From Chitinophaga pinensis (lineage in GTDB: Bacteria; Bacteroidota; Bacteroidia; B-17B0; Aurantibacillaceae): a DNA stretch of 34,709 nt. This document shows, piece after piece, positions 7,839-14,155 of the stretch. The notes under the pieces were generated by a model. The model did not search any database and was not told where the DNA came from. It was given only the letters and a program-made list of their open reading frames with translations. Made by a program: the position numbers and the translations under genes. Where the stretch lies: NCBI GenBank assembly GCA_945860225.1, contig CAMAPT010000026.1:1-34709 (forward strand), in the 5' to 3' direction. How positions within the stretch are numbered: position 1 is the stretch's first letter; every line of letters begins with the position of its first letter.

Positions 7839-8034
7839 ACATAAAAAACCATTTAAAAAAACGCAACAAATTTAATTTCACTCTCCAGAAGCAATACTTT
7901 ACTCAGTAAAACCATAATTTCACTCAATAACAATTGAAATTAATCGACCTGAGAATCAGGCACATAGGTTTTCACCAACAATTATCTTTATTTTTCGTGT
8001 AACTATTCCATAGGTTTTGCATTATAAACCTACA

Positions 8035-8631
8035 ATGCTTTTAGACGCAGTTCATATGGAATTTTCACCGCGATACCACCATACCGCCGACATGTTGCTA
8101 GAAGAGCAAATGATCATTGAGTCTGCGAAACAAAACCCAGAACATTTTGGGGCTATATACGACAAATATTACAAACCAATTTTTGGTTATATATACCAAC
8201 GAATGGATTGTAAAGAAACTGCTTTCGACCTAACTGCTCAGGTTTTCTTAAAAGCATTAACTAATCTTGAAAAATATGAATACAAGGGTGTGCCATTTGC
8301 TAGTTGGTTATATCGAATTGCCCATAGCGAGCTGATGCAACTTTTTAGGACACAAAAAAATCTACGAACAGTTAATGCCGATATAGGAGATTTGAAACAT
8401 ATATGTGAAGAAGCTGAAGAGGAATATATGGAACAATATAAAGGCTCCCTAATGACAGTGATTAAACAATTACCGGAAGAACAATTGCAATTAATTGAAT
8501 TACGTTTTTTTGAAAAACGTCCTTTTAAGGAAATTGCTGAAATAATGGATTTAACGGAAACAAATGCAAAAGTAAAACTATCCAGAATACTGGAACGTGT
8601 AAAAATATTATTGACTAAAACATCCAAATAA
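8035..8631 (+). CDS. ECF-type RNA polymerase sigma factor
   Basis: This sigma-70 family factor of the ECF group has region 2 and region 4 only. Region 2 covers HFGAIYDKYYKPIFGYIYQR to FASWLYRIAHSELMQLFR (about residues 37-108). Region 4, with LPEEQLQLIELRFFEKRPFKEIAEI then TETNAKVKLSRILERV, shows the helix-turn-helix that reads the -35 element. Three starts are possible: TTG 8017, ATG 8035 and ATG 8056. I chose 8035 (198 residues); the first 20-25 residues are outside the conserved fold. The stop codon overlaps the next ATG by one base (TAATG), so the pair is translationally coupled. A short inverted repeat CCTGAgaaTCAGG lies about 75 bp upstream at 7948-7960 and could be regulatory. Confidence 0.9.
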   Translation: MLLDAVHMEFSPRYHHTADMLLEEQMIIESAKQNPEHFGAIYDKYYKPIFGYIYQRMDCKETAFDLTAQVFLKALTNLEKYEYKGVPFASWLYRIAHSELMQLFRTQKNLRTVNADIGDLKHICEEAEEEYMEQYKGSLMTVIKQLPEEQLQLIELRFFEKRPFKEIAEIMDLTETNAKVKLSRILERVKILLTKTSK

Positions 8632-10400
8632 TGGAACCAAAATTTAACCTTAACAGACAACCTGTATCTGATGAAGAAATTAATTCAAAAAAGGACTTTG
8701 GAGAGTTAATAAAGCAATTCAAAAAACAAAGTATTGAAAAAGCCCGAACTGACGAAAATTTCTTTAAAAATAAAAAGGTAACTTATTCTACAATAATTGC
8801 AGGAGTAGCGGTGCTTTGCACCGTTACTTATTTTGCTGTTTTTAATCAAGAATCTTCTAAAAAAATCGCTCATGAGAAAACAATTACTAAGCCATTAAAT
8901 TCAAAACCTGTATTAGGCAATAAATCATACATTTCTCCTCCAGTATCTAAATTAAATATCCCCTACTCGACCTACCGAGTAAAAACACAAAAAGGTGCTA
9001 CGATTATTCACAATAATTCTTCAAAAATCATCATTCCTAAACATGCATTTTTAGATAAAAAAGGGAATGACATTGTGGGCGATGTAGAAATAAAATACCG
9101 CGAGTTTCATAACCAAGCAGATATTATAGTGAGTGGCATTCCTATGACTTATGATAGCGCTGGTGTTCAATCTCACTTTGAGAGTGCCGGAATGATTGAT
9201 ATAAAAGGTTATCAAAACAATGAACCCGTGTACATTAAACCAGACAAAAAAATTACCGTTGAATTTATTTCTGAGCAAACTGCTGATAAATACAATATGT
9301 ATTTTTTAGACACAATTTCAAAAAATTGGGCATACATTAAGCGAGATAATTCATTAATCCAATACAAAAAAGAATTAGAAAACAAGAATGCTTCTTTAAC
9401 GCATCAATTAACAAATCTAAATACCCAAAATATCTTTGAACTCGAGAAACAAATAAAAGAAATTCCTCAAAAACTAGAACAAGCAAAAAATGATTACTCC
9501 CAAAAAATCAATCAGCTTCCAAAAATTACATCTCCAAACAAACTAGCGCAAGCAACAGAGGGTAAACCTAAATTTGAATTGGATGTGGATTATAAAGAAT
9601 TTCCAGAATTAGCCGTTTTTAAACATGCTGTTTTTGAAGTTGGAGCAGAAAATAAAAATTATAACCCTAAAGTAGGCGACATTACTTGGAGTAGCGCAGA
9701 AATTTCTCAAGGTCCGGTAAAAGGAAAAAATTATGAACTGACTTTAAAATTAAAAGACAAGGTAGAAAAACTCATTGTTTATCCTGTATTAACTGGAACT
9801 AATTATGAGAAAGCGTTAAAAGTATATGAATCTAAATTTAATGAATACCAAAAATTAATTCTAAAAAGAGAAACAGAAGAACTACGATTAAAAAATGAAT
9901 TTGAAACCAAGCAAGCAACCTACAAAAATCAAGAAAAACAATTATCAGATAGATTGGTAAAAGAAAAAATAAAACAAGCTCAACAAAAAGAAATAAAACT
10001 AGATAAAGATTTTAAAGAACTCGGCACTTTAGATAAAGTGACACGTATTTTTGAAATCAGTAAATTTGGAATTTATAACTCTGATTGTACCAATCAGTTG
10101 CCTCAAAATGCCACTTTACATGCCTTTTTTATAACTAATAAAGAAAAAATACATTTAAAAACTCAAGCTGTTTATTTAATTTGCCATTCAAAAAATCTAG
10201 TATATCATTTACCGAATGGACCAATTCCTTATAATCCCGGTGAAGTATATAGTATATGTGTGTTAGCAAATAATAAATTATATATGTGTGATAAAGGAAC
10301 CTTTGCAACTGTTATTGCTTCTCATACAAACAAAATTCTACTTACAGAATTGGATAATATACAAGATGCATTTGAACTAAAAAAAGCCATTGGAATATGA
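8631..10400 (+). CDS. Membrane-anchored protein coupled to the sigma factor; candidate anti-sigma/sensor
   Basis: This 589-residue protein has a 50-residue polar, probably cytoplasmic N-terminus, one transmembrane helix (about 51-71), and a large, probably periplasmic part. The latter has a beta-rich domain (about 115-225) with IIIPKHAFLDKKGNDIVGDV, VSGIPMTYDSAG and FESAGMIDIKG, then two charged coiled-coil stretches (about 240-290 and 395-465) and a C-terminal globular domain (about 480-589). I recall similar proteins paired with sigma factors in other Bacteroidota, but know no named function. The one-base overlap with the sigma gene and the single-pass topology suggest that the short N-terminus binds the sigma factor. 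No classical anti-sigma motif (such as zinc-binding HxxxCxxC) is present. Confidence 0.7.
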   Translation: MEPKFNLNRQPVSDEEINSKKDFGELIKQFKKQSIEKARTDENFFKNKKVTYSTIIAGVAVLCTVTYFAVFNQESSKKIAHEKTITKPLNSKPVLGNKSYISPPVSKLNIPYSTYRVKTQKGATIIHNNSSKIIIPKHAFLDKKGNDIVGDVEIKYREFHNQADIIVSGIPMTYDSAGVQSHFESAGMIDIKGYQNNEPVYIKPDKKITVEFISEQTADKYNMYFLDTISKNWAYIKRDNSLIQYKKELENKNASLTHQLTNLNTQNIFELEKQIKEIPQKLEQAKNDYSQKINQLPKITSPNKLAQATEGKPKFELDVDYKEFPELAVFKHAVFEVGAENKNYNPKVGDITWSSAEISQGPVKGKNYELTLKLKDKVEKLIVYPVLTGTNYEKALKVYESKFNEYQKLILKRETEELRLKNEFETKQATYKNQEKQLSDRLVKEKIKQAQQKEIKLDKDFKELGTLDKVTRIFEISKFGIYNSDCTNQLPQNATLHAFFITNKEKIHLKTQAVYLICHSKNLVYHLPNGPIPYNPGEVYSICVLANNKLYMCDKGTFATVIASHTNKILLTELDNIQDAFELKKAIGI

Positions 10401-11005: not shown

Positions 11006-14000
11006 ATGCTAAATAAAATCATTGATTTTTCAATCAATAACAAACTCATTATAGGGCTTTTTATACTCGCTCTTATTGGTTATGGAACTTACGAGGTTAC
11101 AAAATTGCCAATTGATGCAGTACCTGATATAACTGATAATCAGGTACAGGTCATTACTGTAGCTCCTTCATTCGGAGCCACAGACATTGAACGACTTGTA
11201 ACATTTCCAATAGAACAAGCCAATAATAATATTTCCGGTCTGAAAGAAATTCGTAGTTTTTCACGCTTTGGATTATCGCTTGTTACCATCGTTTTTGATG
11301 ACGAAACCGATATTTACTGGGCAAGACAACAAGTAGGAGAACGGTTACAAAAAATTCAGACACAAATTCCCCAAGGAATAGGAACACCGGAGCTTGGCCC
11401 TGTGTCAACTGGATTAGGCGAAATATATCAATATGTGGTAAGAGCCAAAGATGGTTATGAAAATAAATATGATGAAACATCTTTAAGAACCATACAAGAT
11501 TGGCTAGTAAGACGCCAATTATTAGGTGTAAAAGGTGTTGCAGAAGTAAGTAGTTTTGGAGGTAAATTAAAACAATTTGAAATTGCGATTGATCCAAATA
11601 AACTGCAATCACATCAAATTACTATTCATGATGTATTTAGTGCCCTCGAACAAAACAATCAAAATACAGGTGGTAGCTATATAGAAAAAGGGCCAACCGT
11701 TTTATTCATTAGAAGTGAAGGCTTAATTGGTAATGAAAATGATATTAAAAACATTTCAATAAAATCGACCAATAATGGAACTCCTCTATTTATAAAAGAC
11801 GTTGCAGATGTAAAAATTGGGTATGCTACTCGGTATGGTGCTATGTGCTATAACAATCAGGGCGAAGTTTCTGGAGCTGTCGTTATGATGTTGAAAGGAG
11901 CCAATAGTAGCGATGTAATTAAAAATGTAAAAGAGCGCGTTAATCAAATTCAAAAAACATTACCTGAAGGGGTAGTTATAGAACCTTTTTTAGATAGAAC
12001 TAAAATGGTAAATAATGCCATTGGAACAGTTGAACAAAATTTATTAGAAGGTGCATTAATTGTCATTTTTGTACTAGTCCTTTTTTTAGGAAATTTTCGG
12101 GCAGGCCTATTGGTAGCCTCAGTTATTCCTTTAGCCATGTTATTTGCCATCATATTAATGAACACCTTTGGCGTGAGTGGTAACTTAATGAGTTTAGGAG
12201 CCTTAGATTTTGGATTAATTGTAGATGGAGCTGTTATTATTGTAGAAGCCGTGATGCATCAACTGACACATAGTAAAAAATTTAAGCATATCAATCAACT
12301 CAATCAAGAGCAAATGGATACGGAAGTAAATTTGTCAGCAAGTAAAATGATGAACAGTGCCGTATTTGGTCAAATCATTATTCTTGTGGTTTACTTACCT
12401 ATTTTCACGCTACAAGGAATTGAAGGGAAAATGTTTAAACCGATGGCACAAACGGTTGCTTTTGCTTTATTTGGTGCCTTTGTTTTATCATTAACCTATA
12501 TTCCAATGATGAGTGCTTTGTTTTTAAGTAAAAAAACAAAGCATGCGCCAAATATTTCTGACAAAATAATGATTTATATAGAAAAAGCTTACCAGCGTGC
12601 TTTAGCTAATATCTTACGTTATCCTAAATTTCTACTTTCATGCGTTATAGTATTATTTATATCGGCCTTAATTACATTAACTTTTTTGGGAGGAGAATTT
12701 ATTCCTGCATTAGAGGAAGGTGATTTTGCAGTTGAAACAAGGGTATTAACAGGAAGTAGTATCAATACAACCATTGAAAACACTCAAAAAACGGCCCATA
12801 TTTTAAAAACACAATTTCCTGAAGTGATTAAAGTAGTTACAAAAATAGGCAGTGGTGAGGTTCCAACAGATCCAATGCCAATGGAAGCGGCCGATATGAT
12901 GGTAATATTGAAGGATAAAAAAGAATGGACATCTGCTCAAACATTTCCTGAATTAGCAGAAAAAATGAGCAAGTCGCTATCTGATGTTCCTGGAGTTACA
13001 ACTAGTTTTCAATTTCCTGTTCAAATGCGTTTTAATGAATTAATGACTGGAGCGAAACAAGATGTAGTTTGTAAAATTTTTGGGGAAAATTTAGATACAC
13101 TGGCGGTTTATGCCCAAAAATTAGGTGAACTCGTTAATCATGTTGAAGGTGCCAAAAATCTATACATAGAAACGGTGACCGGAATGCCAGAGATAATTAT
13201 TGATTATAACAGACTTGTCATTGCTCAATATAATTTAAATATTTCAGACATAAATAAAGTTGTGAATACAGCATTTGCAGGGCAAACAACCGGATTAATC
13301 TTTGAAGGTGAAAAACGTTTTGACATAGTTGTTCGTTTAAAAACAGACAAACGTCAAGATTTAGAAGATATCAAAAACTTATTAATTCCAACCCCACAAG
13401 GTACACAAATACCACTTTGCCAATTAGCCAATGTGAGTATTAAAAATGGACCTAATCAAATACAACGTGAAGATGCTAAACGTAGAATTATTGTTGGGTT
13501 TAATGTTAGAGGCCGTGATGTTCAAAGTATTGTTAACGAATTACAAAAAAAAGTCGACAAACAAATAAAATTCTCCGCCGGATATTATGTTACTTATGGA
13601 GGTGCCTTCGAAAATTTAAATGCAGCAAAACAACGTCTGTCTATTGCCGTACCTGTATCATTAATTATGATTTTCATTTTATTGTTTTTTGCTTTTAATT
13701 CCGTAAAACATGGATTACTCATATATTCTGCCATTCCATTATCAGCAATTGGAGGTATTTTCTTTTTAGCATTAAGAGGTATGCCTTTTAGTATTAGTGC
13801 AGGAGTTGGCTTCATAGCCTTATTTGGAGTAGCTGTTTTAAATGGCATTGTTCTAATTGCTGAATTTAACCGCCTCAAAAAAGAAGGATTTAATAATTTA
13901 CAAAGAATTGTTTTAATGGGGACAAAAGTTCGTTTACGTCCGGTGTTGATGACGGCCTTTGTGGCTTCATTAGGTTTTTTGCCAATGGCTATAAGCCAAG

Positions 14001-14155
14001 GAGCTGGTGCCGAAGTTCAAAGACCTTTAGCAACCGTTGTCATCGGCGGATTAATGATTGCAACCTTATTAACATTATTTGTTTTACCTGTATTATATAT
14101 TTTATTTGAAAAAGGAGTAACTAATAAGCAACCAACAATTGACAATAAGCAATAA
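11006..14155 (+). CDS. czcA: CzcA-type heavy-metal efflux RND pump
   Basis: This inner-membrane proton-driven pump is the RND subunit of a tripartite Co/Zn/Cd-type exporter. Its 1049 residues are full length, with a first transmembrane helix at about 13-30 and two large periplasmic loops. The helix-4 segment LGALDFGLIVDGAVIIVE places D401, D407 and E414 at the sites needed for proton transport in CzcA (D402, D408, E415 there). This DFGxxxDGAxxxVE pattern is the divalent-cation (HME1) signature rather than the Cu/Ag (CusA) one. The residue after VE is Ala instead of the usual Asn. The other two subunits are encoded downstream, in the order czcA, channel, adaptor. Confidence 0.93.
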   Translation: MLNKIIDFSINNKLIIGLFILALIGYGTYEVTKLPIDAVPDITDNQVQVITVAPSFGATDIERLVTFPIEQANNNISGLKEIRSFSRFGLSLVTIVFDDETDIYWARQQVGERLQKIQTQIPQGIGTPELGPVSTGLGEIYQYVVRAKDGYENKYDETSLRTIQDWLVRRQLLGVKGVAEVSSFGGKLKQFEIAIDPNKLQSHQITIHDVFSALEQNNQNTGGSYIEKGPTVLFIRSEGLIGNENDIKNISIKSTNNGTPLFIKDVADVKIGYATRYGAMCYNNQGEVSGAVVMMLKGANSSDVIKNVKERVNQIQKTLPEGVVIEPFLDRTKMVNNAIGTVEQNLLEGALIVIFVLVLFLGNFRAGLLVASVIPLAMLFAIILMNTFGVSGNLMSLGALDFGLIVDGAVIIVEAVMHQLTHSKKFKHINQLNQEQMDTEVNLSASKMMNSAVFGQIIILVVYLPIFTLQGIEGKMFKPMAQTVAFALFGAFVLSLTYIPMMSALFLSKKTKHAPNISDKIMIYIEKAYQRALANILRYPKFLLSCVIVLFISALITLTFLGGEFIPALEEGDFAVETRVLTGSSINTTIENTQKTAHILKTQFPEVIKVVTKIGSGEVPTDPMPMEAADMMVILKDKKEWTSAQTFPELAEKMSKSLSDVPGVTTSFQFPVQMRFNELMTGAKQDVVCKIFGENLDTLAVYAQKLGELVNHVEGAKNLYIETVTGMPEIIIDYNRLVIAQYNLNISDINKVVNTAFAGQTTGLIFEGEKRFDIVVRLKTDKRQDLEDIKNLLIPTPQGTQIPLCQLANVSIKNGPNQIQREDAKRRIIVGFNVRGRDVQSIVNELQKKVDKQIKFSAGYYVTYGGAFENLNAAKQRLSIAVPVSLIMIFILLFFAFNSVKHGLLIYSAIPLSAIGGIFFLALRGMPFSISAGVGFIALFGVAVLNGIVLIAEFNRLKKEGFNNLQRIVLMGTKVRLRPVLMTAFVASLGFLPMAISQGAGAEVQRPLATVVIGGLMIATLLTLFVLPVLYILFEKGVTNKQPTIDNKQ

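Follow-up and report, generated by a model that had tools for sequence, protein, structure and literature searches.

Two adjoining genes in the window, the whole stretch of 34,709 nucleotides of DNA that was analysed, quite probably encode an ECF sigma factor and a transmembrane anti-sigma factor, of which a short cytoplasmic tail would hold the sigma factor and the ectodomain would sense the envelope. This reading is based on three observations: the operon is conserved, the tail and the sigma gene occur together across homologues, and variants of a promoter-like element track residues in the recognition helix of the sigma factor. Sequestration by the tail and sensing in the periplasm are what we infer from the topology of the partner and the gene linkage. 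The positions of the features are listed in Table 1.

Table 1. Features of the sigma operon in the window and the basis on which each was assigned.
Feature	Position	Strand	Basis
Three direct repeats TTTCACTC / TTTACTC / TTTCACTC, ~21 bp apart	7876..7925	+	alignment of 26 upstream regions
TGAnnnTCA element, conserved (window sequence TGAGAATCA)	7950..7958	+	upstream alignment
Promoter-like element before the sigma gene, TGTAAC-N18-TTATAA	7998..8027	+	upstream alignment, pattern searches
Gene for the ECF sigma factor (191 aa), probably starting at ATG 8056	8056..8631	+	Pfam r2 and r4_2, NCBIfam TIGR02937, start conservation
TAATG stop/start overlap, one base	8629..8633	+	sequence
Partner (589 aa), membrane protein with a single pass, proposed as anti-sigma factor	8631..10400	+	ORF; homologues in the order; no Pfam, NCBIfam or PDB family
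Cytoplasmic tail, residues 1-49, proposed sigma-binding part	8631..8777	+	alignments; presence of tail versus sigma; coupling
Transmembrane helix, about residues 53-71	8787..8843	+	hydropathy in relatives and sequence
Extracytoplasmic beta module 1, residues 96-246, most conserved part	8916..9368	+	alignment, models
Predicted long helix A, residues 243-294	9357..9512	+	model
Beta module 2, residues 300-388	9528..9794	+	model, alignment
Predicted long helix B, residues 389-462	9795..10016	+	model
C-terminal beta module 3, residues 470-589, conserved FGIxNxD	10038..10397	+	model, alignment

The sigma gene, its partner and the spread of the family

The sigma ORF scored over the cut-offs of two Pfam families, Sigma70_r2 (PF04542, 43.9 bits) and Sigma70_r4_2 (PF08281, 43.9 bits), and of the NCBIfam ECF superfamily model TIGR02937 (81.5 bits, cut-off 42.9). 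This general ECF model was the sole NCBIfam family over its own cut-off among the best 25 of the 77 matches listed, and the sigma factor could be aligned with RpoE (1or7_A) in a profile alignment. Judged by these profiles, the ORF is an ECF sigma factor. It is open from a TTG at 8017 and has an alternative ATG at 8035, which the initial annotation had taken as the start. The start is probably ATG 8056 instead, because this is the conserved start (column consensus of at least 85% in the upstream alignment of 26 relatives from the same order) and because position 8035 lies merely 8 bases past the end of the promoter-like element.

The overlap of one base between the two genes, as first described, was read as AAA TAA TGG, with the sigma stop at 8629-8631 and the partner ATG at 8631-8633. 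The accompanying word "fused" says too much, as this is no more than a gene overlap. Across the 164 tail-bearing pairs, with ORF starts set mechanically, the gap between the ORFs was -1 in 5, +1 in 32 and -4 in 14, with a median of 4 bases, and we therefore regard the one-base overlap as ordinary translational coupling. On visual inspection, a 1049-aa ORF downstream of the pair (window 11006-14155) resembles an efflux pump of the RND type.

The layout of the partner agreed with the one first proposed for it: about 50 N-terminal residues, one hydrophobic helix, beta segments, two predicted helices and a C-terminal beta region (model, moderate confidence). The two motifs quoted at that time, IPKHAFLDKKGN and SGIPMTYDSAG, were found in the partner and, according to the alignments, belong to the most conserved part of the family. 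In the tail, the alignments showed a conserved helix of the SxEEIxxxxxFxxLL type. The AlphaFold model of the full partner, built on an alignment of 7 sequences, had a mean pLDDT of 62.6 and a pTM of 0.31, and that of beta module 1 alone had 68.4 and 0.59, respectively. The membrane helix was drawn as strands, and the model is therefore unreliable there; the last beta module was predicted, at low confidence, to be about 100 residues long and to have short strands.

No Pfam or NCBIfam family over its cut-off and no solved structure was matched by the partner, and a Foldseek search of the PDB with the models of the partner and of module 1 returned nothing at E <= 0.001. When 36 diverse family members were compared with Pfam and NCBIfam at E <= 0.01, no family was matched by more than one member, no anti-sigma family was among the single-member matches, and no Pfam match was of the FecR or RsgI type. 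The family profile had a single match in the PDB (E 0.12). The view that the partner carries no known anti-sigma motif and no standard anti-sigma fold thus holds as far as Pfam and NCBIfam profile searches of these 36 members reach. A description of the family was not found in the literature searched; it is possible that the main ECF classification already includes this sigma group together with its neighbour.

At E <= 1, the partner had a single match in the window's own genome. A homologue was present in 73 of the 87 genomes of the same order, all 32 genomes searched in one other order matched, and two more orders had matches at E <= 1e-30 in 16 of 33 genomes and in 13 of 36, respectively. 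Among sampled Bacteroidia, 142 of 396 genomes matched at E <= 1e-10, a count that takes in ectodomain-only proteins. A draw from the phylum yielded matches in 2 of 392 genomes at E <= 1e-20, both from the same class, the proportion of the draw that lies outside this class being unstated. The six relatives that were named are uncultured Bacteroidetes or Bacteroidia genomes, and their loci, judged by length and score, duplicate six of the same-order loci described below. No relative was found in the viral contigs searched.

Linkage and coupling between the tail and the sigma factor

Within the order of the window, the sigma gene lay just upstream of the partner in 26 of 30 loci, and the other 4 were at contig ends with at most 163 bases of upstream sequence. 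We gathered 238 unique homologues from several orders, left 17 with short upstream sequence unscored, and scored 221, many of them at loci hand-picked from match lists. Both the tail and a sigma gene were present in 164 of these, neither in 50, the sigma gene only in 5 and the tail only in 2 (Fisher p 3e-41, a statistic that ignores relatedness). Because the tail profile was built from 36 sigma-linked members, diverged tails may be missed. In the sigma-only group, L193 and L289 seemingly have diverged tails and the start of L194 is seemingly mis-set, as judged by eye; the tail-only cases, L097 and L136, are of one genus and have a good tail with no adjacent sigma gene. L278 and L211, described below, also belong to the 7 discordant homologues. 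The initial annotation would have been refuted by a partner that occurs mostly without a sigma gene. This did not occur, as an adjacent sigma gene was found for 164 of the 166 tail-bearing homologues. The pairing of the two genes is not due to chance.

The other refuting condition set at the outset, a tail that makes no contact with sigma region 2 or 4, was approached through residue coupling. Mean-field coupling was calculated on 159 aligned tail/sigma pairs (of 164, with 5 dropped for gaps; effective number 97). The top couplings, K47-D14 (1.97) and D43-K21 (1.70), compare with top values of 1.14-1.56 in eight random re-pairings. The two were the best pairs in 6 of 9 parameter settings and within the best seven in all 9, and they ranked among the top ten in 18 and 19 of 20 subsamples, respectively. 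Sigma positions 47 and 43 align by eye with RpoE 31 and 27 in the 1or7_A profile alignment, RpoE numbering being taken as the chain number minus 3. These RpoE positions are described as contacts of the H3-H4 linker and helix 4 of class I anti-sigma factors (PMC7406223), and the tail couplings run in the same antiparallel order as those contacts. Of the top 20 coupled pairs, six fell at the 15 listed contact positions with default parameters, and between 2 and 6 did so when the parameters were varied; an entropy-adjusted rank test for the contact positions gave p values from 0.006 to 0.2 over settings.

Control columns from the periplasmic part reached top couplings of 1.55-1.97 in 12 draws, compared to 1.97 for the tail. 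Their top 20 pairs met the contact set, widened by position 46, just 0 to 3 times. Since these columns cannot touch the sigma factor and yet couple to a similar height, we take the coupling as no more than suggestive that the tail helix lies on region 2.1 of the sigma factor, a face that anti-sigma factors are known to contact. On the ectodomain tree, K47-D14 had no excess of joint changes (z -0.45); Y46-K21 had 9 against 2.9 expected, and K47-L26 had 6 against 1.8. For D43-K21 there were 8 charge-compensating and 2 same-sign changes, and a ranking of charge compensation over 3630 column pairs had no clear winner, with D43-K21 in thirteenth place. A scan of 166 helical faces placed the face starting at 42 second, that at 43 eighteenth, that at 39 106th and that at 36 144th.

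The conserved operon and the tail-sigma linkage would be equally expected if the partner were a positive or dual regulator, such that the sigma factor needs the tail or a cleaved fragment of it for activity. FecR, for example, is needed by FecI. We nevertheless consider such a regulator rather unlikely, in that what coupling there is directs attention to region 2.1, the part that binds the clamp helices of RNA polymerase and that class I anti-sigma factors block (PMC7406223).

It is also conceivable that the partner is a structural protein of the envelope, a target of the sigma factor that shares its operon, with the tail as a mere membrane anchor making no sigma contact. The ectodomain does occur alone, with signal-peptide-like starts and no adjacent sigma gene. 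Against this stands, besides the adjacent sigma gene of nearly all tail-bearing homologues, the fate of the tail where the sigma gene is absent. In one other family, f20, 28 of 30 partner loci have a sigma gene, and in the two exceptions, L185 and L186, no sigma gene is adjacent (about 1.4 kb of upstream sequence seen) and the tail is decayed or missing. Moreover, in L278 and L211 the ectodomain is joined to other cytoplasmic parts of about 75-85 residues, which the tail profile did not match, and each is still paired with an ECF-like sigma gene of another kind, that of L211 being a weak Pfam match. Because the ectodomain is constant while tail and sigma factor vary together in these loci, the cytoplasmic part appears to be the part that faces the sigma factor, and a purely structural role seems quite improbable to us. 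The cytoplasmic parts of L278 and L211 share a short and weak local match (17 residues, E 0.009); the idea that they are two further unrelated kinds was softened for this reason, and we count two kinds of tail or more overall.

Of the 50 homologues with neither tail nor sigma gene, 47 showed, in a crude test, a hydrophobic stretch near an N-terminal start; a lipobox-like motif was present in 17. Several long tail-less homologues carry leucine-rich repeats ahead of the ectodomain; the repeats were over the Pfam cut-off in 3 of the 4 long proteins tested and below it in L143. L286 (2232) is a fragment, the starts of L100, L105 and L202 are doubtful, and L111 (3297) has kept the N-terminal extension without the tail motif. 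Signal-peptide-like starts, leucine-rich repeats (weak in L143) and the ectodomain of the partner were seen together in L123, L122, L112 (608-2710) and L143, and in L112 the end of this protein (2710) is separated by about 100 bp from the sigma ORF of a pair (2810). In the tail-less f20 loci L101, L109, L105 and L100, each homologue is followed by an ORF that is about 230-260 aa long and begins like a signal peptide.

Proposed mechanism and known systems

We suggest that the cytoplasmic tail of 45-50 residues carries an amphipathic helix that would pack on sigma region 2.1, and that the tail, held at the membrane, would keep the sigma factor off RNA polymerase. The large extracytoplasmic part, with beta modules spaced by coiled coils, would sense the state of the envelope or a ligand. 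A signal may then alter the ectodomain or trigger its proteolysis, upon which the tail would be released or degraded, and the freed sigma factor could activate its own operon plus a regulon. Possible, though doubtful, is a broader scheme in which the ectodomain is used in three ways in Bacteroidia: in anti-sigma factors of the inner membrane, whose tails are of two kinds or more and are each encoded next to an ECF sigma factor of their own, in lipoprotein-like proteins, and in secreted proteins with leucine-rich repeats. The latter two may partner with, or signal to, the form in the inner membrane, as a transenvelope network. If true, this would account for some of the anti-sigma factors that are missing in Bacteroidota.

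CnrY, which stands for the class II type, is part of a nickel/cobalt system with separate sensor proteins. Its cytoplasmic sigma-binding part is short, and the length of the partner tail fits this. The two differ in that the large ectodomain belongs to the partner, CnrY being compared here by description and not by sequence. The two helices of CnrY bind sigma4 and sigma2 (PMC7406223); for the partner tail, the coupling tentatively suggests region 2.1. RsgI of the SigI systems in Bacilli and Clostridia is alike in having a short intracellular N-terminal part (1-54 in RsgI6), one transmembrane helix and a varied outer sensing part (PMC12203970). However, the part of SigI to which RsgI binds is the C-terminal domain, and RsgI includes a domain for autocleavage in the periplasm (PMC12203970); among 36 members of the partner family, no RsgI-type Pfam match was obtained at E <= 0.01. 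The class I domain (ASDI) of the RseA, RskA and ChrR type resembles the tail in the suggested use of the region 2.1 face and in the antiparallel order, as in ASDI helix 4 and its linker. It differs in size, the tail having about 50 residues compared to 101 +/- 33 for ASDI (PMC7406223), and no Pfam or NCBIfam family was matched by more than one of the 36 members of the partner family.

The Dma proteins found beside ECF sigma factors (Dma/ECF21 in Bacteroides) are large anti-sigma factors with a single transmembrane helix and are described from Bacteroidota only (PMC13088901). That the partner is to be tied to them is scarcely credible, since in Dma a disordered tether leads to a beta-barrel at the C-terminus that sits in the outer membrane (PMC13088901), whereas helices and beta modules with coiled coils are predicted after the membrane helix of the partner (low-confidence model, mean pLDDT 62.6) and its family members have no Pfam family in common. 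By analogy, the best reading is that the partner would work like CnrY or RsgI, in a set-up that resembles Dma. We file it under none of the three, because anti-sigma profiles were unmatched and the Dma barrel was not seen in the low-confidence model.

A class I anti-sigma factor is located near just 6% of the ECF sigma factors of Bacteroidetes, compared to 32% on average, according to PMC7406223, which leaves open how the remaining ones are controlled. The partner family is a concrete and widespread candidate for this missing control, its short tail being missed by domain searches. It also gives a defined promoter and a defined tail as test objects.

Promoter-like element of the operon and possible targets

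Alignment of the 26 upstream regions from the same order revealed GTAAC-N17/18-TTATAA directly before the sigma gene and, further upstream, three copies of a repeat with the consensus TTTCAC(T/C)C at a spacing of about 21 bp. The repeats and the TGAnnnTCA element are probably sites of a further regulator. Across families, 138 of 166 sigma genes had GT[AG][ATG]C-N16..19-TTAT in the 160 nt that precede them (single-base shuffles: mean 4.1, maximum 8). It is not quite exclusive to sigma genes, as it was also upstream of 8 of 65 sigma-less homologues (shuffles 1.3).

The -35 variants among the 138 were GTAAC (71), GTATC (48), GTGAC (17) and others (2). Position 10 of the recognition helix was T in 38 of 48 rows with GTATC; of the 69 rows with GTAAC, 57 had L or M there; 14 of the 17 GTGAC rows had A[CVIN]KM at positions 5-8 of the helix. 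To some extent this pairing reflects clade structure, yet it is what autoregulation by each sigma factor would give. The presence of the promoter-like element before the sigma genes suggests that the sigma/partner operon is autoregulated.

In 20 genomes of the same genus, a longer pattern gave 16 matches in 15 genomes (reversed control 0). Of these matches, 13 preceded this sigma gene, 2 stood ahead of lipoprotein-like ORFs and 1 lay elsewhere (L337); the longer element is thus nearly private to the operon. The shorter pattern, TGTAAC-N16..18-TTATAA, had 7 sites in the window's genome, which was the level of the reversed control (7). In L330 and, as judged by eye, in L290, the long pattern lies directly upstream of lipoprotein-like ORFs, which are possible regulon members with one site each that did not recur.

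Two of the six further sites of the shorter pattern in the window's genome precede gldK-like genes, one of them over the NCBIfam cut-off for GldK and the other under it. We sought gldK in 29 genomes and found it in 28; 26 loci were examined, 25 with a readable ORF and one (L319) without. GT[AG][ATG]C-N15..19-TTAT stood before gldK in 8 of the 12 loci of the same order, and the remaining 4, all from the genus of the window, had a GTCAC-type sequence there (by eye). The pattern was absent from all 10 readable f20 loci, where the element of the sigma gene itself is GTATC, and from all 3 f36 loci. As the count of sites equals that of the reversed control and the f20 and f36 loci are without the element, gldK and the T9SS are unsupported as targets of this sigma factor. 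The gldK promoter is likely to be the target of another ECF sigma factor. GTAAC-N-TTAT was observed before gldK, a T9SS lipoprotein gene, in L297, L300, L301, L303 and L305-L308.
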